Positions 44,329 to 62,941 of a DNA stretch of 64,000 bases are shown piece by piece (the first letter of the stretch is position 1; every line of letters begins with the position of its first letter). A program made the translations under genes and the position numbers. Source of the stretch: Ignavibacteriales bacterium (GTDB lineage: Bacteria; Bacteroidota; Ignavibacteria; Ignavibacteriales; Melioribacteraceae); assembly GCA_016177735.1 (NCBI GenBank), contig JACOUS010000018.1, positions 62,001-126,000 of the forward strand, written 5' to 3'. A model generated the notes under the pieces. That model worked only from the letters and a program-made list of their open reading frames with translations, was not told the DNA's origin and made no database searches.

Positions 44329-44338
44329 TATTCCTCCT

Positions 44339-44949: not shown

Positions 44950-45059
44950 TTTTATATCCGTTTACTGATTTCAAATTGTTGTTTCGTCATGATAACTATT
45001 GTCGAATTGTTATATGATTATATTGTTAAGCAACTTGATATTAGCTAACAATAGAGCAA

Positions 45060-46739
45060 TTAAATAACAACACGCTCTTTGTACTCGCCAAACACTTCTC
45101 GCATCGTGTTGCAAATTTCTCCGATGCTTGCATAAACTTTAACAGCATCAAGAATGTACGGCATAACATTGTCTGTTCCTTCCGCAGCTTTTCTCAATGC
45201 ATCAAGTTTTGTTTTTACTTCGTTGTTGTTTCGCTGTGCACGTATTTTATTTAGGAATTCAATCTGCTCGCGCTGAACTTTTTCATCGATCTTTAACAAA
45301 TTATTGTTCTTCTCTTCGTTCTCGGCAAATTTATTTACGCCGACAACAGTCCGTTCATTGCTTTCCAATTCATGATTAAATCTATAGGCAGATTTTTGTA
45401 TTTCCGTTTGAATGTATCCGGCTTCAATTGCGTTAATAACTCCGCCCATCGCATCAATTTTGTTGATATATTCTTCGGCTTCTTTTTCTATTTGGTCGGT
45501 GAGTGATTCAATATAGTATGAACCGGCGAGCGGGTCGATTGTATTTGTTACTCCGCTTTCGTAAGCAACAATCTGCTGTGTTCGCAAAGCAATCTTTACC
45601 GATTCTTCTGTGGGCAGCGCGAGCGCTTCATCTCGCGAATTTGTGTGCAAGCTTTGTGTTCCGCCGAGTACCGCAGCAAGTGTTTGAATTGTGACTCTGA
45701 TAATATTGTTATCGACTTGCTGAGCAGTTAAAGTTGAGCCGGCAGTTTGTGTGTGGAAACGAAGCATCATCGATTTATCTTTTTTCGCACCGAATCTTTC
45801 TTTCATAATTTTTGCCCACAATCTACGCGCCGCGCGATACTTCGCAATTTCTTCAAACAAATCGTTGTGTGCATTAAAGAAGAAAGAAAGTTGTCCGGCA
45901 AATTCATCAACATCGAGCCCGGCATTAATTGCGGCATGAACGTAAGCCATGCCGTCTGCAAGAGTAAATCCAACTTCTTGCGCTGCGGTAGATCCGGCTT
46001 CGCGAATGTGATAACCGGAAATAGAAATTGTATTCCACTTCGGAATTTCTTTCGAGCAGAATTCAAAAATGTTTGTAATCAATCTCATGGAAGGTTTCGG
46101 CGGATAAATATAAGTTCCGCGCGCAACGTATTCTTTCAAAATATCATTTTGAATTGTACCGCTGATTTTGTCTCTGCCAACTCCTTGTTTTTCGGCAACG
46201 GCAATGTACATTGCGAGCAGAACGGAAGCCGGTGCGTTAATTGTCATCGATGTAGAAACTTTATCGAGCGGAATTTGATCGAACAAAATTTCCATATCGG
46301 CAAGTGTATCGATTGCAACACCAACTTTCCCGACTTCACCCAAAGCCATCGAATCATCGCTGTCGTAACCAATTTGGGTTGGAAGATCGAAAGCAACAGA
46401 GAGACCGCTTTGCCCTTGCGATAATAAGTAACGATATCTTTCGTTTGATTCTTTTGCGGTACCGAACCCGGCGTATTGGCGCATTGTCCAAAATCTTCCG
46501 CGGTACATTGTCGGCTGAACACCGCGGGTAAATGGATATGCACCGGGGTAACTAAGGTTCTCGTTATAATTTTCTAAAGACGAATCGGTTGGCAAATAAA
46601 GCGGTTTTACTTCCGTGAATGATAGTGTCGTAAAATTTTTTAATCGCTCGGGAAACTTTGAGATTGTTTTTTTGTAAGTGTTTTCATTCCAATTATTGTA
46701 TGAATCCTGTACTTTTTTCTTAAGATCATCAATATTCAT
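45060..46739 (-). CDS. Methylmalonyl-CoA mutase, large (substrate-binding) subunit
   Basis: Catalyses succinyl-CoA to (R)-methylmalonyl-CoA with coenzyme B12. 559 residues cover only the TIM-barrel part; the B12-binding domain (H-x-D-x-x-G) is absent and so must be a separate gene, as in many bacteria and archaea. Signature motifs: [45 protein letters not shown], and C-terminal [18 protein letters not shown] precedes ATG 46739. No small-subunit gene occurs in the window. Confidence 0.95.
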
Positions 46740-47539: not shown

Positions 47540-47568
47540 TTGACAATCTACTCAATTAGGATTAGTTT
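47540..47568 (+). promoter_or_regulatory. Promoter candidate for the LacI gene
   Basis: TTGACA (47540-47545), a 17-base spacer and TAGTTT (47563-47568) lie immediately upstream of the operator palindrome. Confidence 0.5.
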
Positions 47569-47577
47569 TAAATCATT

Positions 47578-47593
47578 ATGTAAACGTTTACAT
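47578..47593. promoter_or_regulatory. LacI-type operator palindrome
   Basis: ATGTAAACGTTTACAT is a perfect 16-bp palindrome with the central CG typical of LacI/GalR-family operators. It starts about ten bases after the proposed -10 box and ends 15 bases before the start codon, so binding would block transcription; it implies autoregulation of the following gene and possibly the locus. Confidence 0.75.
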
Positions 47594-47608
47594 TCAATTA
47601 TTTGGCAA

Positions 47609-48604
47609 ATGAACGCTAACATCAAAGAAATAGCAAAACGGGCGAATGTTTCTATTGCCACGGTTTCGAGGGCATTGAGCGGGCAAAATAATGTGCGCGA
47701 GGAAACTAAAAAACATATCCTAAAAATTGCACGGCAGTTAAATTACAATCCGAATCTGCTTGCAAGAAATTTTGTGAAAGGGAAATCAAACATAATTGGT
47801 TTGATTCTTCCCGACATATCCGATGAATTTTTTTCAGAGATTATTAAAAGCATCGACGATACTTCATTTATCAGCGGGTACTTTACGATGGTAATCAGTT
47901 CGCACAAAAACCGCTCGCTTGTCGAATCAATCAATACGATGATGAACAGCGGCATTGCGGGCGGATTCATTCTGCTTGTGCCTTTTATGAATTCCGAAAT
48001 TGAAAAAGCTTTGAAGAGCGAGCGCGTACCGTTTGTAATTATCAGCGGAGATAGTGAGCTGGGCGATTACGACATAATAACAATTGATAATTATAATGCT
48101 GCGTACAACGCGGTAAAATTTCTTGCCGATAACGGCTATAAAAAAATTGCTCACATTGCCGGACCGGATGAAAATAATGATGCTGCTTTACGGCGCGAAG
48201 GTTTTTTGAACGCTTGCACAAAATTGAAACTCGAAACTAAAAAATCATGGATTGTGAAAGCTGATTTTACGTTGGAAAGCGGCGAGCGTGCCGCAAATTT
48301 AATATTAAAGCAGAAAGAAAGACCGGAAGTAATTTTTGCGGCGAACGATATGACGGCAATCGGTTGTTACAACGCGGCATCAAAACTTGGATTAAAAATT
48401 CCCGATGATATTGCAATCATAGGCTTCGATGATGTGCTGATATCCCAGTATGTTAGCCCGCCGCTCACCACAATTAAAGTGGATACGGAAACTATCGGAA
48501 AAACTGCCGCAGAAAAATTAATTCAGAAAATGACGCAGACAGAAAAATTAAAACCGCAGACGATAAAAATTTCTACGGAGCTTGTAATTAGAAATTCATG
48601 TTAA
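47609..48604 (+). CDS. LacI/GalR family transcriptional regulator of the glycan locus
   Basis: 331 residues from ATG 47609. The helix-turn-helix begins at once, I-K-E-I-A-K-R-A-N-V-S-I-A-T-V-S-R-A-L-S, the normal layout of the family, followed by the hinge and a periplasmic-binding-protein-like effector domain with I-G-L-I-L-P-D-I-S-D and A-N-D-M-T-A-I-G. The ribosome site is weak, but a TTG further upstream lies within the promoter and gives no homologous residues. It sits first in the glycan gene cluster, so it probably represses it until a glucan oligosaccharide binds. The effector is inferred only. Confidence 0.93.
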   Translation: MNANIKEIAKRANVSIATVSRALSGQNNVREETKKHILKIARQLNYNPNLLARNFVKGKSNIIGLILPDISDEFFSEIIKSIDDTSFISGYFTMVISSHKNRSLVESINTMMNSGIAGGFILLVPFMNSEIEKALKSERVPFVIISGDSELGDYDIITIDNYNAAYNAVKFLADNGYKKIAHIAGPDENNDAALRREGFLNACTKLKLETKKSWIVKADFTLESGERAANLILKQKERPEVIFAANDMTAIGCYNAASKLGLKIPDDIAIIGFDDVLISQYVSPPLTTIKVDTETIGKTAAEKLIQKMTQTEKLKPQTIKISTELVIRNSC

Positions 48605-48628: not shown

Positions 48629-51004
48629 ATGGGTAAGTTTCAAACAAAATACGGCTACTTTACGGATGACGGAAGCGAATATGTTATCACAAACATAAAA
48701 ACACCCAAACCGTGGGTGAATGTTATTTCAAACGGAACATACGGTTTGGTAATTTCTCAAACCGGCGGCGGATTCAGTTTTAATGAACATTCAGAATTCA
48801 ACCGGTTGAACAGATGGCACCAGGATCTAATACGCGACGACTGGGGAAAATATTTTTATTTCAAGAACAACAAAACCAACGAAGTTTGGAATCCAACATG
48901 GATGCCTACAAAAATTCTTATCGAAAATTTTGAAGCGAGATTCGGTTTCGGTTACGCAATTTTTAAATCCGAGTACAAAGGAATTTTTGTTGAGCTGAAA
49001 ATTTTTATTCCGATGAATGATAACCTGGAGATCTGGAATTTTAAAGTAACAAACAACAGCGGCAAAGAACTTGACCTTTCTATCTATTCTTATTTTGAAT
49101 GGTGTCTCGGTTCGTCTGCAGATCATCACAGAGAATTTCATAAAACATTTATCGAAACGGAATTCAATGCCGAGAATAATGTTATGCTCGCAACAAAACG
49201 TTTGTGGGAAATTCCCCTTGGCGACCGCGGACACTGGAATATTGAATACCCGTATTACGGATTTATTTCAGCCAACCGCGCGATAATTGATTACGAAGGC
49301 GACAAAGAAAATTTTATCGGGCAGTACGGTAGTTTGGATAAACCCGACGCGCTTACGAACCAATCTCTATCCAATAAAACCGGCAAATGGAATGATTCAA
49401 TTGGAACCGTGCGTGTTCGTTTTTCTATTCCGGCTGGCTCATCGAAATCATCTTCATTTTATCTGGGAATAAAGCCTTCCAAAAAAGAAGTTTACGAAAC
49501 GTTGAAAAAATACCGGAGTGATGATCAAATAGAAAAAGCTTTTGATGAAGTAAAAAACTTTTGGCAGAATTTTTTATCTACTCTGGAAATTAATACGCCG
49601 GACGAAGCGATGAATATTATGGTCAACAAATGGATCAGGTATCAAGCAACTGCCGGAAGATTGTGGGCGCGCACTGCGTACTACCAGCAGAGCGGGGCGT
49701 TTGGTTTCAGAGATCAATTACAGGACAGCCTTGTTTATCTGCCGGTTGATAAATCACTCACTGAAAAACAAATTCGTTTGCATGCTCGTCATCAATTTGA
49801 AGAAGGAACGGTTTTGCATTGGTGGCACCCGATCAGCGAAACCGGTCTGCCGACAAAAATGACGGACGATCTTCTCTGGCTGCCGTACGTGCTTTTCCAT
49901 TATCTCGATGAAACTGCGAACTACAAATTTTTAGATGAAACGGAACCGTACTACGATAACAAACAAAAAGACGATTCGCTTTTCGATCATTGCGCAGCGG
50001 CAATTGAAGTGGTTCTGAAACGTTACAGCGAACGCGGCTTGCCGTTGATTGGCGCCGGCGATTGGAACGACGGATTGAGTGCTGTCGGTCTCGAATTTAA
50101 AGGCGAATCGATCTGGCTCGCACATTTCTTCTATTTGATACTAAAACGTTTTGCCGGAGTGTGTGAAAAAGTAGAACAGAAAGAATTTCAAAATCGTTAC
50201 GAACTAAAAGCGGAAGAATTAAAAGAAGCAATCAACAAATATGCTTGGGACGGCGAATGGTTTTGGCGTGCAACAAAAGATAACGGCGAGAAAATAGGAA
50301 GTATTGAAAACGAAGAGGGGAAAATTTTCCTCAATGCGCAGACATGGAGCGTAATTGCCGATTCAACAGACGATCACCGCAAAGCAGATGCAATGGACTC
50401 GGTTGAAAAATATTTGTTGAAAAATAACGGCGCACTTTTGCTGTGGCCCGCTTACACGAAGCCAGATAAATATATCGGTTACCTTTCACGTTACGCACCG
50501 GCGCGAAGGGAAAACGGTGGAGTTTACACTCACGCCGCAACTTGGGCAATTCAAGCTTTTGCAATGATGAAAGATGCAGAGAATGCATTTGAATCATACA
50601 AAAGATTATCGCCAATCAACAGCGGAATGCATCCAGATAAATATGTTGCAGAGCCGTTCGTTACGCCGGGAAATATCGACGGTCCCGATTCTCCAAATTA
50701 CGGAATGGGCGGCTGGACTTGGTACACGGGTTCTGCCCAGTGGTTTCAAAAAGAAATTTTGGAATGGATACTCGGCGTTCGTCCGACGGAAAAAGGCTTG
50801 TTGATCGATCCGTGCATCCCGAAAACTTGGAACGAATATAAAGTGAAAAGAACTTTCCGCGGAACGATTTACAACATCATTGTAAAAAATCAAAACGGTG
50901 TCTCGTTCGGTGTGAAAGAAATTTTTGTGAACGGTGTTCCGGTTAGAGGAAACGTAATTCCGGTTCAGTCAAATAAAATAGTTGATGTAGAAGTAATTCT
51001 ATAA
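48629..51004 (+). CDS. GH94 family glycoside phosphorylase (cellobiose-phosphorylase-like)
   Basis: 791 residues, without a signal peptide, so cytoplasmic. Family GH94 enzymes split beta-glucosides with phosphate to give glucose 1-phosphate. Hallmarks: N-terminal beta domain start N-G-T-Y-G-L-V-I-S, the active-site helix G-F-R-D362-Q-L-Q-D366, W-H-P-I-S-E-T-G-L-P-T, G-A-G-D-W-N-D-G, R-E-N-G-G-V-Y-T-H-A and C-terminal G-G-W-T-W-Y-T-G-S-A. At ~790 residues it matches cellobiose- or laminaribiose-type enzymes; known 1,2-beta-oligoglucan phosphorylases are longer, over 1000 residues. The linkage is therefore unresolved. It follows lacI by 24 bases. Confidence 0.93.
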   Translation: MGKFQTKYGYFTDDGSEYVITNIKTPKPWVNVISNGTYGLVISQTGGGFSFNEHSEFNRLNRWHQDLIRDDWGKYFYFKNNKTNEVWNPTWMPTKILIENFEARFGFGYAIFKSEYKGIFVELKIFIPMNDNLEIWNFKVTNNSGKELDLSIYSYFEWCLGSSADHHREFHKTFIETEFNAENNVMLATKRLWEIPLGDRGHWNIEYPYYGFISANRAIIDYEGDKENFIGQYGSLDKPDALTNQSLSNKTGKWNDSIGTVRVRFSIPAGSSKSSSFYLGIKPSKKEVYETLKKYRSDDQIEKAFDEVKNFWQNFLSTLEINTPDEAMNIMVNKWIRYQATAGRLWARTAYYQQSGAFGFRDQLQDSLVYLPVDKSLTEKQIRLHARHQFEEGTVLHWWHPISETGLPTKMTDDLLWLPYVLFHYLDETANYKFLDETEPYYDNKQKDDSLFDHCAAAIEVVLKRYSERGLPLIGAGDWNDGLSAVGLEFKGESIWLAHFFYLILKRFAGVCEKVEQKEFQNRYELKAEELKEAINKYAWDGEWFWRATKDNGEKIGSIENEEGKIFLNAQTWSVIADSTDDHRKADAMDSVEKYLLKNNGALLLWPAYTKPDKYIGYLSRYAPARRENGGVYTHAATWAIQAFAMMKDAENAFESYKRLSPINSGMHPDKYVAEPFVTPGNIDGPDSPNYGMGGWTWYTGSAQWFQKEILEWILGVRPTEKGLLIDPCIPKTWNEYKVKRTFRGTIYNIIVKNQNGVSFGVKEIFVNGVPVRGNVIPVQSNKIVDVEVIL

Positions 51005-51037: not shown

Positions 51038-51061
51038 TTGTTCAAAAAAGTAGGAGAGGCA

Positions 51062-52444
51062 ATGAGAAAATTATTTATAAACATCGCATTGGTGTCTTTT
51101 GTCTTTTCAAGTTATGCGTTTTCGCAATCAACATACAAACCTTATTGGGAAAATAAATTTGAATTAACCGCAGAACAAAAAACTTTTCTCGATACACTTC
51201 AATACAAAACTTTTCTTTATTTCATTAATGAAATAAATACTGAAAACGGATTGGTAAAAGACCGTTCGACTGAAGCATCGCCGGCTACAATTGCGGCTAC
51301 GGGATTTGCAATTCCGATTTGGGCAATTGGCGCAGAGAAGGGATGGATCACAAAAGAGAAAGCAGTTAAACTGACTTATAATCTTCTCAACTTTTTTTAT
51401 AACTCCGAACAGAGCATGGATAAATTTGCAGCCGGTCACGACGGCTTCTACTATCATTTTCTTGGAATGAAAGACGGTAAACGATTTTGGAACTGCGAAC
51501 TCTCTTCGATTGATTCGGGATTACTTTTTTGCGGAATGATATTCGCGCGGAATTATTATAACGGCGATACGGAAAAAGAAAAAGCGATCCGGGAGTTGAC
51601 AAATAAAATAATCGGCAGAGCTAATTACGATTACTTTGCGCACGATGCCGATGCAAAATTTCCGAACGGAATTTCGATGGGCTGGCATGAACGTGAAGGT
51701 GTTTTTGAAATTTCGTGGTGGGGTTACACCGAAGCTTTGTTCCTTTACGTCATTGCTGCCGGGATGGATATGCAAAACGCTCCGGAAGGTTTTAAAGATA
51801 CTTTTGTTAAACATTATCAATGGCGCGAACCGTATCAGAATTTGGGTCATGTTGTTTTTCCTTCGTTGTTTTCACATCAATATTCGATGATGTTTTTGGA
51901 TACGCGCGGTCTGCAAGATAAATACATGAAAGAAAAAGGAAGCGATTATTTCGAAAACTCACGCCGTGCAGTATACACGCAATGGAATTACGCGAAAGAA
52001 AATCCCGAAGGATGGGAGGGCTACGATTCACTTTGCTGGGGCTGGACTGCAAGTGATGGTCCCGGTGATTTCGAAAAAGACGGAAAAAAATTTGGAGGTT
52101 ATGCCGCTCGCGGTAATTCGGGTCCGGATTCTGTAGAATATGATGACGGTACAATCGTTCCAACTGCCGCCGGGGCTTCAATTCCGTTTGCACCGGAAAT
52201 TACAATTCCTACTTTGATGAACATGTATGAAAAATATAAATCGATTGGAGTGTGGGGCAAGTACGGATTTTATGATTCGTTCAACCCGACTTTGAATTGG
52301 GTCAACCCGGATTATCTCGGTCTCGATCAAGGTCCGATTGTTATCATGATTGAAAATTTTTACAACGGATTTGTTTGGAAATATTTTATGAAAGATCCGG
52401 TTGTGCAGAAAGGATTAGAGCGTTTGGGTTTTGAAAAGAAATAA
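51062..52444 (+). CDS. PF10091/GH144-type secreted glucanase-like protein
   Basis: 460 residues from ATG 51062, which has AGGAGAGG upstream and gives a signal peptide (R-K-L-F-I-N-I-A-L ... A-F-S-Q). A longer TTG frame is discounted. The body matches the 'putative glucoamylase' domain PF10091 (COG5368): E-N-G-L-V-K-D-R-S near the start, W-N-C-E-L-S-S-I-D-S-G-L-L, W-G-Y-T-E-A-L, S-L-C-W-G-W-T-A-S-D, Y-D-D-G-T-I-V-P-T-A and L-D-Q-G-P-I-V-I-M-I. GH144 members are endo- or exo-beta-1,2-glucanases. It has no sorting domain, so it may remain periplasmic. Catalytic residues were not assigned. It differs from the related protein at 57785 in lacking the Fn3 and C-terminal domains. Confidence 0.85.
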   Translation: MRKLFINIALVSFVFSSYAFSQSTYKPYWENKFELTAEQKTFLDTLQYKTFLYFINEINTENGLVKDRSTEASPATIAATGFAIPIWAIGAEKGWITKEKAVKLTYNLLNFFYNSEQSMDKFAAGHDGFYYHFLGMKDGKRFWNCELSSIDSGLLFCGMIFARNYYNGDTEKEKAIRELTNKIIGRANYDYFAHDADAKFPNGISMGWHEREGVFEISWWGYTEALFLYVIAAGMDMQNAPEGFKDTFVKHYQWREPYQNLGHVVFPSLFSHQYSMMFLDTRGLQDKYMKEKGSDYFENSRRAVYTQWNYAKENPEGWEGYDSLCWGWTASDGPGDFEKDGKKFGGYAARGNSGPDSVEYDDGTIVPTAAGASIPFAPEITIPTLMNMYEKYKSIGVWGKYGFYDSFNPTLNWVNPDYLGLDQGPIVIMIENFYNGFVWKYFMKDPVVQKGLERLGFEKK

Positions 52445-52497: not shown

Positions 52498-55400
52498 ATG
52501 AGTTGGCAGATGAAAGAGGTAATATCAAAAATTATAATCGCCATTCTTGTTCTGCTTTCGCTTGCGATACAATTATTTGCACAGCCGAAAACGCTTGATG
52601 AATTCAATACAACAGAGGGCTGGCAGATTTTTGCTTCAGAAGGTGTCGAAATAAAAATTTCAACTGTCGATGGATGGAAAGGGAAATGTCTCCATCTCGA
52701 TTATAACTTCACGAAAGGTTCCGGCTACGGCGGCATCCAAAAAGTTTTGCCGATTGCATATCCGGAAAATTATCAATTCAATTTTTATCTCAGAGCTCAA
52801 TCGCCGAACAATAATCTGGAATTCAAACTGCTCAGCGCTAATAATGAGAATGTTTGGTGGTACAACAACCGCAATTATGAATTTCCCGATCAATGGACAA
52901 AATATGTAATCAAAAAAAGAAAGATTGAATTTGCATGGGGACCAACCACAGATAAAACTTTGCGGCAGACGGAGAAACTTGAATTTACAATTGCTTCGTA
53001 TAACGGCGGTAAAGGAACAATTTATCTCGACGAATTGAAATTCGAACCTCTGCCGGAATTATTGAGTGCACTGCTTCAGCCTTTGTTTACGGCAACATCC
53101 ACATCAAAAAAATCAGATGTAAAATTTTTAAGCGATAAAAATCATGGAACTATTTGGCGCAGTAATTCAAAAGAGAAACAAGAAATCATTCTCGATTTGC
53201 AAGGAAGAAAAGAATACGGCGGCTTAAAAATTGTTTGGGACGAAAAAGATTTCGCGAGCAAGTTCAATCTCCAAATTTCCGATGACGGAAAAACGTGGGA
53301 AAAGATTTACACGGCTGCCAAGGAGAATCCCAACATAAATTATATTCGTCTGCCGGAGTTTGAATCCGCACTCATCAAAATTCAATTGGAGAAAAGTTTT
53401 AGTGGGAAAGGATTTGGGATAAGAGAAATAGAAATTAAAGACGGCGAGTATTCGGCTGACATCAACCGCTTCTTTATTAACATTGCAAAAGACCATACGC
53501 GCGGATTTTACCCGAGATATTTCAACGAAGAAAAATCTTACTGGACTGTAGTGGGTGTAAGCGAAGATGTGAAAGAGGCTTTGATAAATGAAGACGGCGC
53601 AGTTGAAGTTGATAAACAGAATTTTTCGCTCGAACCGTTTTTGTATTACGACGGCAAACTTAAAACATGGAACAGCCAGCAAAACATTCAGCGGCTCGAA
53701 AAAAATTATCTGCCGGTTCCAAGTGTAAAATGGCTCGGCGATATCCAGCTTGAAGTGAAAGCATTTGCCGACGGCGAAGCAAACAAATCATCCGTACTTT
53801 ATCTTTCATACACTTTAAAAAATATTTCGAAGGAAGTGAAAGAAGGGAATCTGTTTGTTGCAGTTCGTCCGTTTCAAGTTAATCCTTATTATCAGTGGCT
53901 CAATGTTACCGGCGGTGCTGCAAAAATCAGATCAATAAAAACAGAGAAGAACAAAATAGTTGTGAACGGCGCCAAGTATATCGTTCCAATTAGCAAGGCG
54001 GACGGCTTCGGCGCTGCATCATTTGATGACGGCGATGTAACTTCGTTTTTATCGCAAGACAAACTTCCGCAGAAAAAAAATGTTGTTGATAAAATTGGTT
54101 ATGCATCAGCCGCGATGAAATTTTCTTTTGATTTGAAACCACAGGAAGAAAAAATATTTTACGTTGCAGTTCCATTCTATAAAGAAATCCCGGGCAAACT
54201 TAATTCCGGCAAAGCACAGTTTGTAAATCAAAAATTGGAAGAGACGAAAAAATTTTGGGAAGAAAAAATCACACACGTAAAATTTAATCTTCCTTCTTCG
54301 GCTGATAAAATTGTAAACACGATCCGAACAAATCTTGCAAACATTTTGATCAACCGCGATAAAGCCGGAATACAGCCGGGCTCGCGTTCATACGAGCGTT
54401 CATGGATACGTGACGGCTCACTCACTTCTTCGGCACTTTTGAAAAACGGAATTGTGAAGGAAGTCCGCGAGTTTGCAGATTGGTATTCGGCGAATCAATT
54501 TGAAAACGGAAAAGTGCCGTGTGTTGTTGACCGCCGCGGTCCCGATCCGGTACCGGAAAACGACAGTCACGGTGAACTTGTTTATCTCATCAAACAATAT
54601 TTTAATTACTCGAAAGACACAACATGGCTCCGCTCGAAATTTGAAAATGTGAATAAAACAGTTGACTACATAAAATTTTTGGTTGATCAGCGCTCGACTG
54701 ATTTTTACAAAAGCGGAAACGACAGCATCCGCGCTTGTTACGGAATTCTTCCCGAATCAATTTCGCACGAAGGTTATTCTGATAAACCACGTCATTCGTA
54801 CTGGGATGATTTCTTCGGCATGAAAGGTTTGAAAGACGCCGTTGAGATTGCTGATCTGCTCGGTGAAAAAGAAGAATCAAAAAAAATCGCCGGCATCCGC
54901 GATGAATTCAAAAAAAATCTTTATGAATCAATCGAGCTTGCAACGAAGCGGAAAAAAATAAATTATATACCGGGCTGCGCCGAACTCGGAGATTTTGATG
55001 CCACATCAACTACAATTGCACTTTATCCGTGCAACGAGTTGAACAATCTGCCGCACGAACTTCTTCAAAATACTTTTGACAAATATTTTGAGAACACACA
55101 AAACCGTGCAAAACCAGAAACGGTGTGGGATGCGTACACGCCGTATGAAGTCCGCACGATTGGCTCGTTTATATTTTTGGATCAGCCGGAACGCGCGCAC
55201 TGGCTGCTCGAATATTTTTTGAATGATCAGCGACCGCAAGGCTGGAATCATTGGGCGGAAGTTGTTTGGAAAGACAGACGCATTCCGCGTTTCATCGGCG
55301 ATATGCCGCACACGTGGGTCGGTTCGGATTTTATAAATTCGATGCGCACTATGTTCATTTATGAAAATGAATATGATTCCACAATTGTTCTCGGCGCCGG

Positions 55401-55683
55401 ACTTTATCAAGATTGGATCGATGCACCGAACGGAATGAGTATTGAACATTTGCCTTCGTACTACGGCGATATTTCATACTTCGTTAAAAAAGAAAATGAA
55501 AAGTACAGAGTTGATATCGTACTTCACGAAAACGAAAATGTGAAAGTTGTTCTGAAAAATTTCAATCAGAAAAAATTGCCGAAGAAAATTTTGGCAGACG
55601 GGATCGAGTTGAAAAATTTTACGGAGAATTCCATTCCGTTTTATATCGGTAAAACTCCGGTGAGTCTTGAGATTTTTTATTAA
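52498..55683 (+). CDS. Large discoidin-containing six-hairpin glycosidase-like enzyme, family unassigned
   Basis: About 1061 residues from ATG 52498; an ATG four codons on may be the real start of the signal peptide (K-I-I-I-A-I-L ... L-F-A-Q). No clear ribosome site was found. Order of domains: CBM-like jelly roll (about 30-190), discoidin/F5-8 type C-like domain (about 210-320), a beta-rich linker domain (about 330-590), then an (alpha/alpha)6-type catalytic region (about 600-960) with S-Y-E-R-S-W-I-R-D-G, H-G-E-L-V-Y, Y-W-D-D-F-F-G and D-A-Y-T-P-Y-E-V, then a short beta domain. The acidic R-D-G and W-D-D segments are plausible active-site residues. Homologous proteins are usually annotated only by the F5/8 domain. 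A carbohydrate-acting enzyme is likely from its neighbours; activity unknown. Confidence 0.75.
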   Translation: MSWQMKEVISKIIIAILVLLSLAIQLFAQPKTLDEFNTTEGWQIFASEGVEIKISTVDGWKGKCLHLDYNFTKGSGYGGIQKVLPIAYPENYQFNFYLRAQSPNNNLEFKLLSANNENVWWYNNRNYEFPDQWTKYVIKKRKIEFAWGPTTDKTLRQTEKLEFTIASYNGGKGTIYLDELKFEPLPELLSALLQPLFTATSTSKKSDVKFLSDKNHGTIWRSNSKEKQEIILDLQGRKEYGGLKIVWDEKDFASKFNLQISDDGKTWEKIYTAAKENPNINYIRLPEFESALIKIQLEKSFSGKGFGIREIEIKDGEYSADINRFFINIAKDHTRGFYPRYFNEEKSYWTVVGVSEDVKEALINEDGAVEVDKQNFSLEPFLYYDGKLKTWNSQQNIQRLEKNYLPVPSVKWLGDIQLEVKAFADGEANKSSVLYLSYTLKNISKEVKEGNLFVAVRPFQVNPYYQWLNVTGGAAKIRSIKTEKNKIVVNGAKYIVPISKADGFGAASFDDGDVTSFLSQDKLPQKKNVVDKIGYASAAMKFSFDLKPQEEKIFYVAVPFYKEIPGKLNSGKAQFVNQKLEETKKFWEEKITHVKFNLPSSADKIVNTIRTNLANILINRDKAGIQPGSRSYERSWIRDGSLTSSALLKNGIVKEVREFADWYSANQFENGKVPCVVDRRGPDPVPENDSHGELVYLIKQYFNYSKDTTWLRSKFENVNKTVDYIKFLVDQRSTDFYKSGNDSIRACYGILPESISHEGYSDKPRHSYWDDFFGMKGLKDAVEIADLLGEKEESKKIAGIRDEFKKNLYESIELATKRKKINYIPGCAELGDFDATSTTIALYPCNELNNLPHELLQNTFDKYFENTQNRAKPETVWDAYTPYEVRTIGSFIFLDQPERAHWLLEYFLNDQRPQGWNHWAEVVWKDRRIPRFIGDMPHTWVGSDFINSMRTMFIYENEYDSTIVLGAGLYQDWIDAPNGMSIEHLPSYYGDISYFVKKENEKYRVDIVLHENENVKVVLKNFNQKKLPKKILADGIELKNFTENSIPFYIGKTPVSLEIFY

Positions 55684-55703: not shown

Positions 55704-57788
55704 ATGATTTTGAACGAAAAAATAAAATTAAACGGAAGCTGGTTTTACAAAACCGATGCAGATTCAAAATTGGATTATGAATCTGTGCGCAGATTGTTTT
55801 TATCGGGGAAGATAAAAGATGAGATGCGCGTTCCATCCAACTGGCAGCTTGCCGGCTTGAACAATTTCAGCGGTGCTGTTTGGTTTATAAAAAAATTTAA
55901 TGTAAGCGAAAAATTTTTTGCAAAACGAATAAAAATTCTTAAGTTGAAAGGCAAAGATTACATTGCAGATATTTGGTTGAACAAAAGCTTTGTGAGGCAC
56001 CATGAAGGTTATTTCCAAACGTTCAACTGCGATATCGGCAAATTTATTTTAAAGCAGAATCTGCTTGTCGTAAAAATAACCTCGCCTTTCGAAGAACCCG
56101 GCAAAGTTTGGCCCCTCAAGAAAAAACTTATCAAAGGAATTTTTAATCATCACGATTGCAGACCCGGCGCGTGGGATCCGAAACACGGGCAAGATCAAAA
56201 CACCGGCGGAATTTGGAACGATGTGCTGATCGAATCTGCAGATGGTGTTTGGCTCGAATCCGTGAGGCTTGATTCGAAAATTAATTACGCAAAAAATTAT
56301 GCGGATGTTAACATCAAAGCGGATTACCTTTCCGCTCTTTCAAAATCAGTGAAAGAAGAAATAGTTGCCGAGGTTCTTTCGCCGGATGGAAAAATTTTCG
56401 AACATCGTTTTAACGAAACTATAAAACCGGGGATGCAGACTTTTAAAATTTCGTTTGAAATTAATAACCCGTTTTTGTGGTGGAGTTGGGACATCGGCAA
56501 ACCGGATCTTTACAGAATAAAAATCTCATCAAAACTATTTGACGATTACAAAACTACTTTCGGAATCCGCGAAGTTAAACTTGACGACGAACAAATTTTT
56601 TATCTAAACGGAAAAAGATTATTCCTCCGCGGCACGAACATTATTCCGACACAATTTTTAAGCGATCTGACAAAAAAGAAAATAGAAAAACAAGTAACAC
56701 TGATTCGCGAAGCAAAGCTTAATGTAGTGCGAGTGCATGCCCACGTTAACCGTGATGAATTTTATGACGAGTGCGACAAGCAAGGAATTTTAGTTTGGCA
56801 AGATTTTGCACTGCAATGGACTTACGACGACTCCGAAGAATTTGCTAAGAATGCCGTCACTCAAATTAAAGAGATGGTACGCCAGCATTACAACCATCCT
56901 TCGATTTCATTTTGGTGCTGTCACAACGAACCCGGCAAGCAGATCGAAACATTGGATAAAAAATTATTTAATGCTGCTGCAAGCGAAGACAAAACTCGTG
57001 TAATCCGCATCGCTTCAAATTATGAAGAGCACGCATACGATGGCTGGTACTGGGGCGATAAAGAACATTATGCAGCCGCTCCGATGGGTCCGCTGGTTAC
57101 TGAATTTGGCGCGCAAGGTATTCCCGAAATTTCTTCGTTGAAAAAAATTCTTTCATTGGAAGATATCCGCAAACCGAATTGGGAAAAATGGAAGTATCAT
57201 AATTTTCAATACGAGCAGACTTTCCAAATTGCCGGCGTGCAAAAAGGAAAGAACACGCACGAGTTGATTCGTAATTCGCAAAATTATCAAGCCGAACTTT
57301 TACAGACAGCAATTGATTCTTACCGGCGCAAACGTTTCAACGGTATCAACGGAATTTTTCAATTTATGATGATCGACTGCTGGCAATCGATCACGTGGTC
57401 GGTTGTTGATTATTATTTCAAAAAGAAGAAAGCGTATTTCGCTTTGCAAAAAACGATGCAGCCGGTTTATGTTTCTGTTCGTGTACGGCAGAAAAAATAT
57501 TTTGCCGGTGCAAAATTAAATATCGATTGCTGGCTGATTAATGACTTGCACGAATCATTTTCAAATTGCAAACTTGCGTTTGATCTTAACGGAAAAATTG
57601 TAAACGAAATGGAAATGGGAACGGTTACGGAAGATTCGATTCGTTTTATCGACTGGGAATCGATTCATTTAATTTTGCCGAAAAACTTAAAAGCCGGAAA
57701 ACATTCTGTTGAAATTTTCTTGAAGAGTGATAAAAAAATTTTGACGGCAAATAATTTTGAGATTGAAATCGAGAGGGACACACGATGA
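55704..57788 (+). CDS. GH2 family glycoside hydrolase
   Basis: 694 residues and no signal peptide, so it should act in the cytoplasm. The classic GH2 order is present: sugar-binding jelly roll (about 10-170, with D-I-W-L-N and H-E-G-Y-F), Ig-like domain, and TIM barrel starting near 300 (F-Y-L-N-G-K-R-L-F-L-R-G). The acid/base Glu409 is in W-C-C-H-N-E-P and the nucleophile Glu467 is in V-T-E-F-G. GH2 includes beta-galactosidases, beta-mannosidases and beta-glucuronidases; with this context a beta-glucosidase or other exo-activity on imported oligosaccharide is plausible, but substrate is not readable. The stop overlaps the next ATG as ATGA. Confidence 0.92.
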   Translation: MILNEKIKLNGSWFYKTDADSKLDYESVRRLFLSGKIKDEMRVPSNWQLAGLNNFSGAVWFIKKFNVSEKFFAKRIKILKLKGKDYIADIWLNKSFVRHHEGYFQTFNCDIGKFILKQNLLVVKITSPFEEPGKVWPLKKKLIKGIFNHHDCRPGAWDPKHGQDQNTGGIWNDVLIESADGVWLESVRLDSKINYAKNYADVNIKADYLSALSKSVKEEIVAEVLSPDGKIFEHRFNETIKPGMQTFKISFEINNPFLWWSWDIGKPDLYRIKISSKLFDDYKTTFGIREVKLDDEQIFYLNGKRLFLRGTNIIPTQFLSDLTKKKIEKQVTLIREAKLNVVRVHAHVNRDEFYDECDKQGILVWQDFALQWTYDDSEEFAKNAVTQIKEMVRQHYNHPSISFWCCHNEPGKQIETLDKKLFNAAASEDKTRVIRIASNYEEHAYDGWYWGDKEHYAAAPMGPLVTEFGAQGIPEISSLKKILSLEDIRKPNWEKWKYHNFQYEQTFQIAGVQKGKNTHELIRNSQNYQAELLQTAIDSYRRKRFNGINGIFQFMMIDCWQSITWSVVDYYFKKKKAYFALQKTMQPVYVSVRVRQKKYFAGAKLNIDCWLINDLHESFSNCKLAFDLNGKIVNEMEMGTVTEDSIRFIDWESIHLILPKNLKAGKHSVEIFLKSDKKILTANNFEIEIERDTR

Positions 57789-59755
57789 AAAAAATAATTT
57801 TGTTCTGCTGTTCATTTATTTTTATGCTGAATGTTTTCGTGTATGCACAAGATACAACACCACCGGCAGTGCCGTCAAATTTTCGTGCGTACTCGTACGA
57901 GCTTCACGGCGATCTTTATTGGGATGCTAACACAGAAACAGATTTGTCGGGTTATCTTCTTTATAAATGGAACGGTTCGTCATTCGCATTTTCCCAAAAC
58001 TTGAGCAAAGATGTAACATGGCAAATGTATTGGTACGGGTTCACCGGTGTCGGCGAGAAATTTAAAATACGTGCGTACGATACTTCGGGAAATGTTTCCG
58101 ATTTCAGTGATGAAGTAGAAATCTCAACACATGAAATGACCGATGACGAATTTATGGATATGGTTCAGCGCGCTGTGTTCAGATATTTTTGGGATTGGGG
58201 CGACCCAACTTCAGGTGTTGCACGCGAACGCTGGCATTCCGATGAGAGCGATAAAACAAATACAATTGGCGGCGGCGGCTTCGGAGTTATGGCAATTTTA
58301 GTCGGTGTTGAACGCGGTTTTGTTACTCGCGGACAAGGTGCAGAAAGAATTTTAAAGATTGTTGATTTCCTTGCAAACAAAATTGAAAAATTCCACGGTG
58401 CATTTCCACATTGGTTCAACGGCACAACAGGCAAAGTTGTAAAATTTGGCGTGCAAGACGGCGGCGATATTGTTGAAACAGCTTTCATGATTCAAGGCTT
58501 GCTTGCAGCACGGCAATATTTTAATCAACAAGACAACACCGAAGCACAAATAAGAAATTTGACCACACAACTTTGGGAAAATGTTGATTGGGATTTTTAC
58601 CGCAACTATTCAACCGGGCTTTATTGGAACTGGTCGCCCACGATGGGATTCAATTTCAGCGACACATTTATTTTCCACGGATGGAACGAAACATTAATGC
58701 CGTACCTACTCGCAGTTGCATCGCCAACACACGGCATTCAAAAAATGTATTATGATTCCGGATGGGCGACAAACGGCGGAATAAGATATACGGGAAGTGC
58801 ACGCTACGGTTACGATTTGTATCTCGGAAATAAAAACAGTTACGGCGGACCTCTCTTCTTTACCCATTATTCTTTTCTTGGATTTGATCCGCGCACGAAA
58901 CGTGATAAGTATGCAAATTATTTTGCGCAAAATATAAATCAGAGTTTGATCAACTATTCTTACTGTGTCGATAATCCTAAAAAATTTACCGGCTATAGTG
59001 AAAACTGCTGGGGACTGACTGCAAGCTATTCGGTACCGGGCGTCGATTATACCGCGCATGAGCCGATGAATAACGATAACGGAACAATTGCACCGACTGC
59101 AGCGCTTTCATCGATGCCGTACACTCCGTATGCATCAAAACAAGCTATGAAATATTTTTACAGAACGTTCAAAGATAAGTTGTGGGGCAAGTTTGGTTTT
59201 AAAGATGCATTCAATCTAACTTACTCCGCAAACGGCGTGAGCGGCGAATGGTTCAGCGGCGGTTATCTGGCAATCGATCAGGGACCGATTATTTGCATGA
59301 TCGAAAATTACCGCTCGCAATTATTGTGGAATTTGTTTATGACTGATCCCGATATTCAAACGGCACTTCCTAAAATTCCATTTTATGATGACCAATTTCC
59401 TCCGACTGATGTTGAAGAAAAAAATGAAATGCCGGACGGATTTAAGTTGAATCAAAATTATCCGAACCCGTTCAACCCGGAAACGACAATTAAATATGTA
59501 CTTCCCGAAGCGGCGAATGTTACATTAAAAGTTTTTGATGTTTTAGGCAGAGAAGTAACAACACTTGTAAATGAATTTAAGCAAGCCGGTATCTATTATT
59601 CTACATTCACCGCTCTGCACTCTGCATTCTCAAGCGGAGTATATTTTTACACATTAAGGGTATGGGTTTCTCCAGAAGGGATGCCTTCGGCATTCGTCGG
59701 CTCACTTCGTTCCTCGGAATTTCAGGTAACACGCAAAATGCTTTTGCTCAAATAA
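57785..59755 (+). CDS. Surface GH144-type glucanase-like protein with Fn3 and type IX sorting domain
   Basis: 656 residues: signal peptide (1-21, ending V-Y-A-Q), one Fn3 domain (about 25-115, P-P-A-V-P-S-N-F-R-A), a PF10091 domain (about 120-545) with G-G-G-G-F-G-V-M-A, F-H-G-W-N-E-T-L-M-P, C-W-G-L-T-A-S and D-Q-G-P-I-I-C-M-I-E, and a C-terminal sorting domain. PF10091 proteins characterised as GH144 cut beta-1,2-glucan. The sorting domain carries two extra segments (around A-L-H-S-A-F-S and S-P-E-G-M-P-S-A-F-V-G-S) that look encoded by dispersed repeats. Probably the surface enzyme that starts polymer breakdown. Confidence 0.88.
   Translation: MKKIILFCCSFIFMLNVFVYAQDTTPPAVPSNFRAYSYELHGDLYWDANTETDLSGYLLYKWNGSSFAFSQNLSKDVTWQMYWYGFTGVGEKFKIRAYDTSGNVSDFSDEVEISTHEMTDDEFMDMVQRAVFRYFWDWGDPTSGVARERWHSDESDKTNTIGGGGFGVMAILVGVERGFVTRGQGAERILKIVDFLANKIEKFHGAFPHWFNGTTGKVVKFGVQDGGDIVETAFMIQGLLAARQYFNQQDNTEAQIRNLTTQLWENVDWDFYRNYSTGLYWNWSPTMGFNFSDTFIFHGWNETLMPYLLAVASPTHGIQKMYYDSGWATNGGIRYTGSARYGYDLYLGNKNSYGGPLFFTHYSFLGFDPRTKRDKYANYFAQNINQSLINYSYCVDNPKKFTGYSENCWGLTASYSVPGVDYTAHEPMNNDNGTIAPTAALSSMPYTPYASKQAMKYFYRTFKDKLWGKFGFKDAFNLTYSANGVSGEWFSGGYLAIDQGPIICMIENYRSQLLWNLFMTDPDIQTALPKIPFYDDQFPPTDVEEKNEMPDGFKLNQNYPNPFNPETTIKYVLPEAANVTLKVFDVLGREVTTLVNEFKQAGIYYSTFTALHSAFSSGVYFYTLRVWVSPEGMPSAFVGSLRSSEFQVTRKMLLLK
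59609..59722. repeat. Dispersed-repeat sequence inside a coding region
   Basis: GCTCTGCACTCTGCATTCTC near 59611 shares CTCTGCACTC with the intergenic repeat at about 11459; TCCAGAAGGGATGCCTTCGG (59671) and GGCTCACTTCGTTCCTCGGA (59699) resemble the TTCGCTTCGCTCAGA repeat class. Both are in frame in the sorting domain. Confidence 0.5.
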
Positions 59756-59781: not shown

Positions 59782-61065
59782 ATGAACAAACTGAAAAATT
59801 TTTTTACTGTCATCTGTTTCCTGACTACTGCCTTCTGCCTTTTGAGCTGCTCACAAAAGAAGGAAGATGAAATCACATTAAATTTTTGGGCGATGGGTGT
59901 TGAAGGTGAATATGTTTCCAAACTTGTGCCCGAATTTGAAAAACAAAACCCCGGCATAAAAGTAAAAGTATTGCAGATTGCCTGGGTCGCAGCGCACGAA
60001 AAACTAATTACAGCATTTGCGAGCGGAACATTACCGGATGTATTTCAACTTGGCAACACATGGATTCCGGAATTCCAATCGCTCGGTTCAATCGAACCGC
60101 TCAATAATTACATTGCTAAATCATCCGTCGTTTCAGCGCAAAACTATTTTGAAGGAATTTGGGAAACGAACAAGATTGATGAAACCGTTTACGGTATTCC
60201 GTGGTATGTTGATACACGCGTTCTATTTTATCGTACCGATATTTTAAAAAGTGTCGGTTACAATTCTGCACCGCGGACATGGGCGGAACTTTACGATGCT
60301 TCAAAAAAAATAAAACAGAAGTACAACAGATATTCTTTCTTCATTCCAACTAATGAGTGGCTCCCGTTTATACTTTTTGGTATTCAAAATAATGCACGGC
60401 TGTTGAGAGATAATAATCAGCACGGAGATTTTACAAGCAAAGAATTCAGAGAGGCAATTGAGTACCTCGCAAAATTTTATTATGAAGGATTAGCACCGGT
60501 AGATATGCAGCAAGTGTTAAATGTTTATCAAGCATTTGGCGAAGGTTTCTTCTCGATGTACATCACCGGTCCATGGAATGTAACGGAATTCCAAAATCGT
60601 TTGCCTAAAGAATTACAAGATGATTGGATGACTGCACCGCTTCCTTCGCCGGATAATGATTATCCCGGTTATTCTTTGCCGGGCGGATCGAGCATTGTTC
60701 TCAATGCAGATTCAAAACAGAAAGATGCGGCGTGGAAGTGGATCGAATTTTTATCGAAGAACGAAACACAGTACAATTTTTATAAACTTGTTTCATCGCT
60801 TCCTTCTCTAAAAAAAGTTTGGGAATATCCCGAATTTGCCGGCAATATTTATATGAAAGCTTTTTATGATCAGCTTCAGAAAACAAAACCGACTCCCAAA
60901 ATTCCGGAGTGGGAACAGATAGTGTTTCAAAAAATTCAGCAGCAGACTGTTGAACCGATTGCGCGGAAAAAAATGACGATTGATGCCGCACTGAAACAAT
61001 TGAACAATGATGTTAATAACATTCTCGAAAAGCGAAGATGGCTGCTCCTTAATTCTGAGGAGTGA
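59782..61065 (+). CDS. Sugar ABC transporter solute-binding lipoprotein
   Basis: 427 residues. The N-terminus ends in L-L-S-C, so Cys23 is a lipid anchor; the rest is a family 1 (MalE/UgpB) solute-binding protein with L-N-F-W-A-M-G, F-E-K-Q-N-P-G-I-K-V, A-F-A-S-G-T-L-P-D-V-F-Q and Y-G-I-P-W-Y-V-D. It captures oligosaccharides in the periplasm for the permeases at 61251 and 62132. In beta-1,2-glucan loci such as that of Listeria, a binding protein of this type recognises sophorooligosaccharides. Here the ligand is inferred. Confidence 0.95.
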   Translation: MNKLKNFFTVICFLTTAFCLLSCSQKKEDEITLNFWAMGVEGEYVSKLVPEFEKQNPGIKVKVLQIAWVAAHEKLITAFASGTLPDVFQLGNTWIPEFQSLGSIEPLNNYIAKSSVVSAQNYFEGIWETNKIDETVYGIPWYVDTRVLFYRTDILKSVGYNSAPRTWAELYDASKKIKQKYNRYSFFIPTNEWLPFILFGIQNNARLLRDNNQHGDFTSKEFREAIEYLAKFYYEGLAPVDMQQVLNVYQAFGEGFFSMYITGPWNVTEFQNRLPKELQDDWMTAPLPSPDNDYPGYSLPGGSSIVLNADSKQKDAAWKWIEFLSKNETQYNFYKLVSSLPSLKKVWEYPEFAGNIYMKAFYDQLQKTKPTPKIPEWEQIVFQKIQQQTVEPIARKKMTIDAALKQLNNDVNNILEKRRWLLLNSEE

Positions 61066-61197
61066 AACGACGAAGAATCTCCTAATAATATTTGTGTGCA
61101 AAATTATTAATTGGGTTTTTTAAGCAGTAGCAATTTTAGACTGCACAATTTGTTAGTGAAGTAAATAAAGAAATAAATTCTAAAGAATAGCGCAGCA

Positions 61198-61252
61198 AGA
61201 ATCTCTTACACGAATTGGTAGGAGGCTCTTCGCTTCGCTCAGAGCCGAATGT
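61198..61252 (+). repeat. Dispersed ~55-bp repeat, copy 2, ending at a start codon
   Basis: Matches the copy at 9966-10020 and abuts the permease GTG at 61251. It contains a hairpin, GGCTCT (61224-61229) with AGAGCC (61241-61246), which lies where the ribosome would bind. Confidence 0.6.
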
Positions 61253-62135
61253 GAAAACAAATACAAAACTTAGTGTGTTAATACTTTTTCTCGGTCCATC
61301 GCTCATTGTGATTTTCGTTTTCTTTTTTCTGCCCGTGATTGCGGCATTCACGATGAGCTTTACCGATTTTGATATTTATTCGCTCGGAAATTTTGATTAT
61401 CTCCGCGTTACCGGTTTTGATAATTACAAAAAACTTTTGAACGAACCGCTTTTTTGGACAGCATTAAAAAATACTTTTTACTTTGTACTTGTCGGCGGAC
61501 CTTTATCAGTTGCGGCATCGCTCGGTACCGCACTTCTGCTCAATTCAAAATTGATAAAGTACAAAAGCATTTTCCGCATGATTTATTTTCTTCCGGTTGT
61601 TACGACACTTGTTGCCGTTTCGATTGTTTGGCGTTACTTCTATCATCCGCGTTTCGGATTGCTCAATTACATATTAAGTTTTATCGGGCTTGGTCCGTTT
61701 GACTGGCTCGGCGATCCGAATCTTGCGATGCCGGCAATTATTATTCTTGCAGTGTGGAAAAATTTCGGTTACAACATGATAATTTTTATTGCCGGTCTGC
61801 AAAACATTCCCGAAGATTTGTACGAAGCCGCGGGCATCGAAGGTGCGACGGCATGGCAGCAATTCAAACACATTACAATTCCACTACTTGCACCGACAAC
61901 ACTTTTTATCAGCGTGATTACAATGATCGGCTACTTCCAATTGTTTGCCGAGCCGTACGTGATGACGCAAGGCGGACCATTGAACAGCACGCTCAGTATT
62001 GTGCTTTACATGTATCAGGAAGGATTCCGCTGGTGGAATATAGGTTACTCGACAGCAATTGCATTTGCTCTTTTCATTATCATTTTGATCGGCACGTTAA
62101 TTCAATTTAGATTGCAGAAGGAGAGCGAAGCATGA
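61251..62135 (+). CDS. Sugar ABC transporter permease (MalF/UgpA type)
   Basis: 294 residues from GTG 61251, giving M-K-T-N-T-K-L-S-V-L-I-L-F-L. A TTG 12 codons upstream would translate the dispersed repeat and is discounted. Six membrane segments are seen, with the conserved ATPase-contacting loop E-A-A-G-I-E-G-A-T-A-W-Q-Q-F-K-H-I-T-I-P. It is the first permease; the stop overlaps the start of the second as ATGA. Confidence 0.92.
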   Translation: MKTNTKLSVLILFLGPSLIVIFVFFFLPVIAAFTMSFTDFDIYSLGNFDYLRVTGFDNYKKLLNEPLFWTALKNTFYFVLVGGPLSVAASLGTALLLNSKLIKYKSIFRMIYFLPVVTTLVAVSIVWRYFYHPRFGLLNYILSFIGLGPFDWLGDPNLAMPAIIILAVWKNFGYNMIIFIAGLQNIPEDLYEAAGIEGATAWQQFKHITIPLLAPTTLFISVITMIGYFQLFAEPYVMTQGGPLNSTLSIVLYMYQEGFRWWNIGYSTAIAFALFIIILIGTLIQFRLQKESEA

Positions 62136-62941
62136 AAAAATTTCTGATAATCTCGCTTGCGGTAATTGTTGCTGTTATGACTTTCACCCCTTTTTTGTGG
62201 ATGCTCTCCGCTTCGTTCATGAAAAGCGGTGCAGCAAATACGTATCCTCCCAAAATTTTTCCCGATGAATTTGATTTCTCGCATTACAAAACTTTGTTCA
62301 CGCGTTTGAACCTAACACGTTATTTAATCAACAGTACAGTTATTTCGCTCGGTGTTACTGCCTTATCGCTTCTGTTCAATTCGATGGCTGGCTACGCATT
62401 TGCAAAGTTCAGATTCAAAAAGAAAAAATCTTTTTTCAAATTTTTGTTAAGTGCAATGATAATTCCCGGACAAGTTACAATGCTTCCCGTCTTTTTAATT
62501 TTGAAAAACATGGGATTGATAAATACATATTGGGCAATAATAGTTCCGGCAATGGCAAGCATCTTCGGAATATTTTTGATACGCCAGTATGCGTTTTCAA
62601 TTCCCGATAGTTTGATCGAAGCCGCAAAGATGGACAGCGCAACCGAACTACAAATTTATTTCCGCATAATACTTCCATTGTGCAAACCGATTCTTGTTAC
62701 TCTCGGGTTGTTTACTTTTATGGGAACGTGGAATGATTTTCTTTGGCCACTGATTGTTATGACCGATATGAACATGTACACGCTTCCGGTTGCACTTGCA
62801 AACTTGATGAGCGAGCACGTTCAGGATACTGAATTGATGATGGCTGGATCGGTGATTACAATTCTTCCGGTGCTTGTTGTTTTCCTCGCTTTGCAGAAGT
62901 ATTACATAAAAGGAATTATGATGGGGAGTGTGAAAGAGTAA
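62132..62941 (+). CDS. Sugar ABC transporter permease (MalG/UgpE type)
   Basis: 269 residues. The EAA loop is [20 protein letters not shown], with about six hydrophobic segments. It pairs with the permease at 61251 to form the channel in the inner membrane. The ATG overlaps the previous stop codon. Confidence 0.94.

Follow-up and report, generated by a model that had tools for sequence, protein, structure and literature searches.

Among described gene clusters for the use of β-1,2-glucans, one that bears a close likeness to the locus reported here is the SGL cluster of Ignavibacterium album, a member of a related group, in which two glycoside hydrolase (GH) family 144 genes, a GH94 gene and the binding protein of an ATP-binding cassette (ABC) importer occur together with the GH35 β-1,2-glucosyltransferase IaSGT (PMC8861115; here and below, statements on published work refer to excerpts of the papers cited). 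Mining of sgl clusters and of homologues has already yielded this transferase (PMC8861115) as well as families GH192-194 (PMC12102758). Xanthomonas campestris makes an α-1,6-cyclised β-1,2-glucohexadecaose (PMC11228985), and the α-1,6 junction of cyclised glucans is formed by its OpgD (PMC11228985, PMC11842490). Here we analyse a stretch of 64,000 nucleotides, termed the window, from an Ignavibacteriales bacterium (assembly GCA_016177735.1, contig JACOUS010000018.1, positions 62,001 to 126,000), in which a gene at 52498-55683 on the + strand encodes a modular protein of 1061 residues (the target; residue numbers are counted from the ATG at 52498). The excerpted I. album account describes other enzymes and makes no mention of such a protein (PMC8861115), and among the papers listed in searches of the open-licence PubMed Central literature none was seen to describe it.

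The target combines two binding-type modules with a catalytic-type half, is strongly conserved, and is steadily accompanied by GH144 genes, often also by an SOGP-like GH94 gene and an oligosaccharide importer. It is a candidate for a new GH family of β-1,2-glucan metabolism, within a known superfamily and a known pathway. As to its activity, we tentatively propose a periplasmic exo-glucosidase of an unclassified family, with a GH15-like predicted fold and active site, dedicated to β-1,2-glucan and with an α-1,6 linkage as its best substrate. The target is of interest as a conserved, apparently uncharacterised enzyme of β-1,2-glucan loci for which candidate catalytic residues and a short substrate list are at hand; should α-1,6-cyclised glucans prove to be its substrate, it would reveal how bacteria consume a glucan that has been called vital for infection of model plants (PMC11228985).

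Modules and conservation of the target protein

The longest reading of the target frame on the + strand begins at TTG 52471 and includes in-frame ATGs at 52498 and 52510 before the stop at 55683. The ATG at 52510 is the more likely start and yields a signal-peptide-like N-terminus, MKEVISKIIIAILVLLSLAIQLFAQ (52510-52581, + strand), which, judged by eye, ends in LFA ahead of a Q; 22 of 31 homologues have a signal-peptide-like start above a simple hydrophobicity threshold. The first module thereafter (52582-53067, about residues 29-190) is a β-sandwich resembling carbohydrate-binding module (CBM) family 11. Although PF03425 (CBM11) does not match the target itself, it matches 8 of 16 homologues at E up to 1 (best 4.8e-5), a profile of 19 target homologues matches CtCBM11 at 1.5e-5, and the modelled N-terminal module aligns with CBM11 at Z 15.6 (3.1 Å over 154 residues). 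The second, an F5/8 type C (CBM32-like) module at 53089-53424 (residues 198-309), is the only region of the target above a Pfam cut-off (PF00754, 46.9 bits vs a cut-off of 28.2, with two overlapping Pfam models), and PF00754 matches 16 of 16 homologues at E up to 1. Both modules had been proposed in a first-pass annotation of the window, the former simply as CBM-like, and both are borne out. The remainder is predicted to comprise a super-β-sandwich domain (53473-54177, about residues 326-560), to which predicted strands and fold matches across the region point, an (α/α)6 barrel (54280-55353, about residues 595-952) indicated by predicted helices at 600-952, fold matches and profile comparison, and a C-terminal β domain (55465-55680, about residues 990-1061) of predicted strands; all lie on the + strand.

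Judged by sequence conservation, the reading frame is genuine and encodes a strongly conserved protein, beyond what chance would produce, identities to the target being 36-71% among 18 homologues of one alignment. A further alignment of 31 sequences, comprising 28 copies from the home phylum and those of three Alphaproteobacteria (Croceibacterium, Methylosinus and Methylocystis) and omitting the broken or split pieces from Xanthomonas sacchari, L023 and G001, contains nine acidic residues of the catalytic half that are identical in 31/31: D639, E687, D689, E758, D770, D832, D834, E921 and D935. E956 is identical in 30/30, and E884 differs in 2/31. W636 and R638 are likewise invariant across all 31, as is the spacing of 14 residues from E921 to D935.

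Matches to the target at E ≤ 0.001 occur in 26 of 58 relatives, many of them to the F5/8 type C module only or as distant fragments; long matches (E ≤ 1e-100) are found in 16 of the 58, the home genome included, and one of these is a fragment at a contig edge. Phylum-wide, a profile of the family matches 37 of 395 genomes at E ≤ 1e-10, and for 19 of these the match reaches E ≤ 1e-200. Outside the phylum, four records of a plasmid collection match, from Croceibacterium (43% identity), Xanthomonas sacchari (37%), Methylosinus (30%) and Methylocystis (32%); three of these copies carry no annotation beyond 'discoidin domain-containing protein', and for the fourth no feature is listed. No relatives were confirmed in viral contigs with the two peptide patterns used, and three distant matches (L017, 546 residues; L018, 774; L020, 780) fell below all Pfam cut-offs and gave no lead.

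Predicted fold, active site and family placement

Two AlphaFold models built from six-row alignments, one of the whole mature protein and one of residues 326-1061 (mean predicted local distance difference test score, pLDDT, 62.8 and 64.3, respectively), both show a helical barrel that follows a super-β-sandwich and precedes a C-terminal β domain, the longer model adding two β modules in front. In structural comparison (VIA), the best match of the catalytic model is dextran dextrinase (Z 20.2; 8.3 Å, 482 aligned), followed by the phosphorylase part of cyclic glucan synthase (Z 19.1), glucoamylase (Z 18.8; 7.2 Å, 443 aligned), the GH94 cellobiose phosphorylase (Z 18.4), glucodextranase (Z 18.3; 7.9 Å, 490 aligned), GH116 (Z 17.7) and rhamnosidases at 16.6 and lower. 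Root-mean-square deviations of these matches are 7-11 Å, the exceptions being the rhamnosidases and an invertase, which align at about 4 Å over 247-269 residues. Dextran dextrinase, glucoamylase and glucodextranase are GH15-type enzymes (PMC12446779). Structure prediction accordingly upholds the (α/α)6-like region of the first-pass annotation, and the modelled order of an (α/α)6 barrel after a super-β-sandwich is that of GH15; of the folds proposed there for comparison, GH15 (Z 20.2) is among the best and GH94 is close (18.4-19.1).

In GH15 the general acid resides in the α5→α6 loop and the general base in the α11→α12 loop, and in dextran dextrinase Arg542-Asp543 bind O4 and O6 of the -1 sugar, with Glu874, 16 residues past Glu858, also contacting O6 (PMC12446779). 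When helices of the target model are counted from 600-618 to 943-952, short turns skipped, W636-D639 falls in α1→α2, E758 in α5→α6, and E921 and D935 in α11→α12. W636-I-R638-D639 (54403-54414, + strand, as are the codons that follow) is the predicted glucose-binding motif at subsite -1; E758 (54769-54771), within S-H-E-G-Y-S, is the predicted general acid; E921 (55258-55260), within W-A-E-V-V, is the predicted general base; and D935 (55300-55302), at 14 rather than 16 residues past the second glutamate, is a predicted O6 contact. As a prediction from the model, this layout is consistent, if weakly, with that of GH15, a family that spans glucoamylase, glucodextranase, isomaltose glucohydrolase and trehalase, with dextran dextrinase as a retaining homologue. 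W636-I-R-D639 aligns with W-I-R-D of Pfam-positive GH15 sequences, W-G-R-D of GH133 and W-T-G-D of one GH78 sequence, and E921 with S-E-I of GH133. A difference from GH15 is that the target has H-E-G-Y-S where the Pfam-positive GH15 encoded beside the Methylosinus homologue has L-W-E-E, and a forced global alignment of the target to GH15 gave nothing informative past the first motif. Two of the motifs named in the first-pass annotation, R-D-G (W636-I-R-D-G) and Y-W-D-D (residues 768-771), are present as described, and the third reads H-E-G (S756-H-E-G-Y-S) instead of H-G-E. Because dextran dextrinase, a retaining transglucosidase, uses the same two glutamates as the inverting GH15 enzymes, the sequence does not discriminate between the two mechanisms (PMC12446779).

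No Pfam or NCBIfam model reaches its cut-off on the catalytic half of the target. The best catalytic-domain Pfam match is PF17389 (Bac_rhamnosid6H, GH78), at 21.2 bits vs a cut-off of 24.5 (E 2e-4), which matches 12 of 16 homologues at E up to 1 (best 1.3e-7). PF00723 (GH15) scores 15.9 bits vs a gathering score of 22; PF06202 (GH133) has no match on the target at E up to 1 and matches 9 of 16 homologues (best 6.5e-5); PF17167 (the GH94 catalytic domain) has no match on the target at E up to 1 and is absent from the 21 families matched by 16 homologues; and no GH65 Pfam match was obtained on the target. Among NCBIfam models, the oligosaccharide amylase model TIGR01577 gives 22 bits vs a cut-off of 820.7 and the trehalase model TreH1 16.4 bits vs 820, both of which we take to be GH15-type models. 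In an alignment of 19 homologues (A3), TIGR01577 matches 19/19 at E up to 0.001 (best 1.1e-9), TreH1 10/19 and TreH2 1/19, in each case below cut-off. A PDB search with the target at E up to 1 returned two CBM32-type chains and no solved catalytic relative, and one with a profile of 19 homologues added CBM11 chains and no catalytic relative at E up to 0.01.

When the target family was compared by hhalign with small alignments of family members taken from relatives (8 members for GH65), probabilities for residues 326-1061 were 96% for GH78, 91% for GH15, 84% for GH133, 82% for GH94, 74% for GH65 and 56% for a GH63-like family, as against 0.2% for GH144, 0.5% for GH2 and 0.3% for the binding protein. 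For residues 560-1061 alone they were 96%, 90%, 86%, 19%, 23% and 34% in the same order of families. Identities in the alignments to GH78, GH133, GH94 and GH65 are 14-19%, and the GH15 alignment is centred on the W-x-R-D region. GH78, GH133, GH94 and GH65 share the (α/α)6 superfamily, and the target passes the Pfam cut-off of none of them. The first-pass annotation could not place the protein in a known GH family; this holds in that no Pfam or NCBIfam cut-off is passed, and it was too pessimistic in that fold matches, sub-threshold models and motifs together suggest the GH15 neighbourhood as the nearest, with GH78 (first by profile probability), GH133 and GH94 competing. Besides the unmet cut-offs, on which a plain GH15 assignment was rejected, the target differs from GH15 in its CBM11-like and F5/8 type C front and its setting in β-1,2-glucan loci. 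Membership in GH144 was excluded by the profile probability of 0.2% and by the lack of a PF10091 match at E up to 1.

β-1,2-Glucan loci and the proposed function

GH144, the β-1,2-glucanase family, lies within 10 kb of the target on the same contig in 16/16 family- and order-level genomes with a long target copy (home included), and is present in 10 of the other 40 genomes searched (Fisher 1.3e-7, uncorrected for kinship). The earlier view of the target as a likely carbohydrate-active enzyme of a glucan locus is upheld, and its tie to β-1,2-glucan genes proves much closer than that annotation could show. By script, 34 target-bearing stretches contain GH144 (30), an importer binding protein (20), GH2 (15), GH94 (14), GH35 (4, the family of the I. 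album transferase) and GH3 (2); these stretches are not independent cases, since several belong to a single genus and contig ends truncate some of them. Of the four stretches in which the script found no GH144, L137 has one by annotation and Pfam, and for L037 one lies 9.7 kb away outside the stretch; the other two are L139 and L140. L139, from Methylosinus, has SOGP (SOGP_N 3.1e-68) and GH15 in place of GH144. The Croceibacterium homologue adjoins GH144, and the X. sacchari locus comprises LacI, a TonB receptor, GH144, a binding protein, two permeases and the target, continuing on the other strand with edd, pgl, glk (glucokinase) and zwf.

Synthesis of osmoregulated periplasmic glucans (OPGs) by the genome itself was considered as an alternative role and rejected: the home genome has no MdoG/OpgG match at E up to 1e-5, and PF10091 matches nothing in it at E up to 1e-20 besides the two GH144 genes of the window locus, which therefore looks degradative. 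We envisage that an extracellular GH144 cleaves the glucan and that fragments enter the periplasm, where the secreted GH144 and the target would complete their breakdown into products for the importer and the cytosolic phosphorylase. The CBM11-like and F5/8 type C modules are predicted to hold the glucan and W636-x-R638-D639 the terminal glucose in subsite -1, with E758 in the α5→α6 loop donating a proton and E921 in the α11→α12 loop activating water, so that the anomer would be inverted. The target's contribution would be to take off a terminal glucose out of reach of GH144 and GH94. Among known glucoses, the best fit may be the single α-1,6 linkage of α-1,6-cyclised β-1,2-glucans, which after GH144 action would remain as Glc-α-1,6-(β-1,2-Glc)n.

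That this α-linked glucose is the preferred substrate is unproved. It is weighted above a β-linked glucose on account of the sub-threshold sequence models, which favour α-acting enzymes, although the margin between the two is not large. Some of the GH15-type enzymes matched by fold act on α-1,6 linkages (PMC12446779). The X. sacchari homologue, in its LacI-TonB receptor-GH144-ABC locus adjoining glucokinase, also speaks for an α-1,6 substrate, X. campestris being a producer of α-1,6-cyclised β-1,2-glucohexadecaose (PMC11228985). The most specific form of the proposal, and a rather doubtful one, is that the target is the founding member of a new GH family, spread over the Ignavibacteria-containing phylum and Pseudomonadota, that cleaves α-1,6-cyclised β-1,2-glucans, or their trimmed remnant, at the α-1,6 junction, as the missing catabolic counterpart of the Xanthomonas OpgD-type cyclase.

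A number of results weigh against an α-acting, GH15-like exo-glucosidase dedicated to β-1,2-glucan. Every NCBIfam match of the family is far below cut-off, and GH78 comes first in the profile comparison because of its top probability and an alignment of 373 columns vs 110 for GH15, or 32 with the barrel end alone. The R-D motif aligns in GH94 as well and is therefore silent on α vs β substrates. GH94 and GH116 structures score only 1 to 3 Z units below the best GH15 structure, so that the fold comparison points to a superfamily, not a family. W636-D639, E758, E921 and D935 all occupy model stretches with pLDDT < 50, which renders their loop placement provisional. On the genomic side, ten GH144-bearing genomes lack a long target copy, L140 (Methylocystis) has no related neighbour such as GH144, SOGP or GH15, and the X. 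sacchari copy is frameshifted in its record. Because much of the core is kept in the ten GH144 loci of those relatives that lack a long copy (binding protein 7/10, GH2 7/10, GH94 6/10), the target is taken to be an accessory enzyme, perhaps for a subset of substrates. Finally, GH3 occurs in 6/10 of these loci vs 2/34 target-bearing stretches (Fisher 0.0007, uncorrected for kinship).

This alternation fits the target as a stand-in for a β-glucosidase, and it underlies the main rival, namely that the target is a periplasmic exo-β-glucosidase acting on β-1,2-gluco-oligosaccharides or on the β-1,6 side glucoses of OPGs, a job done elsewhere by secreted GH3 enzymes. OPGs with such side glucoses exist (PMC11842490), the six GH3 proteins have signal-peptide-like starts by eye, and the fold scores come near those of β-acting GH94 and GH116. 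However, identity to the GH3 of L021 is about 48-59% for four of the six and about 33-34% for those of L141 and L150, which lie on the strand opposite to the cluster; GH3 and target also occur together in L021 and L137. The sub-threshold models favour α-acting enzymes, and E921 is invariant in 31/31, unlike in GH94 phosphorylases, where phosphate takes the place of the base glutamate. We consider this role unlikely.

A transglucosylase or phosphorylase that remodels β-1,2-gluco-oligosaccharides without hydrolysis is quite improbable. Dextran dextrinase, which heads the fold matches, is a retaining transglucosidase with inverting-type glutamates (PMC12446779), and the architecture is common to GH94 phosphorylases; against this, the frequent signal-peptide-like starts imply secretion, under which phosphorolysis would waste glucose-1-phosphate, and an invariant acid occupies the GH15 base position. 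Slightly less credible again is the removal of another sugar or substituent, such as a deoxy-hexose, from decorated glucans, an activity of the kind that GH78 α-L-rhamnosidases have: PF17389 gives the strongest Pfam match of the catalytic domain, GH78 has the top profile probability and rhamnosidase folds align at about 4 Å, yet the target stays below the Pfam cut-off and has W-x-R-D where the compared GH78 sequence has W-T-G-D. A catalytically dead glucan-binding or capture protein, to which the two binding modules in front might point, is very hard to reconcile with nine catalytic-half acidic residues invariant in the home phylum and three Alphaproteobacteria. The α-acting exo-glucosidase remains our preferred reading.

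Neighbouring genes and further observations

All genes of the locus lie on the + strand, in the order LacI, GH94, GH144, target, GH2, GH144 with a sorting tail for the type IX secretion system (T9SS), binding protein and two permeases; the target is thus flanked by two glucanase genes, as first described, though not directly on both sides. The LacI-type regulator (47540-48604) precedes the GH94 phosphorylase (48629-51004), which has no signal peptide by eye and whose nearest solved structure is the phosphorylase part of cyclic β-1,2-glucan synthase. The GH144 upstream of the target (51038-52444) has a signal-peptide-like start and as its nearest solved relative XcSGL (XCC2207, 8xul; 8.9e-90). 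XcSGL offers a parallel in that a target homologue occurs in the X. sacchari GH144-ABC locus, and differs in belonging to another protein family than the target, as the GH144-target profile relation of 0.2% indicates. Downstream follow the GH2 protein (55704-57788), without a signal peptide by eye, the GH144 with the T9SS tail (57785-59755), and the ABC sugar importer (59782-62941), consisting of a binding protein (59782-61065) and permeases at 61215-62135 and 62132-62941.

By BLAST across 44 stretches, of which 34 bear the target and 10 lack it, an IaSGT-like GH35 occurs in 5/44, GH2 in 22/44, and both together in none; a GH2 protein such as that at 55704-57788 may replace the β-1,2-glucosyltransferase in the cytosol, or may hydrolyse sophorose. 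In L061, L062 and L063, the GH94 beside the target has 1,156-1,161 residues, is about 34-35% identical to that of the window, and is perhaps of the full SOGP type. Four loci that lack a long target copy hold a smaller GH144, and in three of them (L141, L147 and L150; L149 is plain) its start, judged by eye, is lipobox-like (S-C, G-C); the smaller GH144 of the window, also by eye, carries a plain signal peptide.

The Methylosinus locus (L139:3583-13395) holds SOGP, a Pfam-positive GH15 and an SbmA-like ABC gene close to the target homologue, whose start is not signal-peptide-like; together these features suggest a cytosolic, perhaps biosynthetic, version of the pathway. In a β-1,2-glucan locus of G002 (G002:C138:11317-11454; L019, L150), GH144 adjoins a stretch of 46 residues that matches the target but contains a stop codon, probably the remnant of a lost target gene. 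Adjoining the window locus on the - strand (42769-46739) are genes that, named by eye, resemble those for propionyl-CoA carboxylase, methylmalonyl-CoA epimerase and methylmalonyl-CoA mutase.

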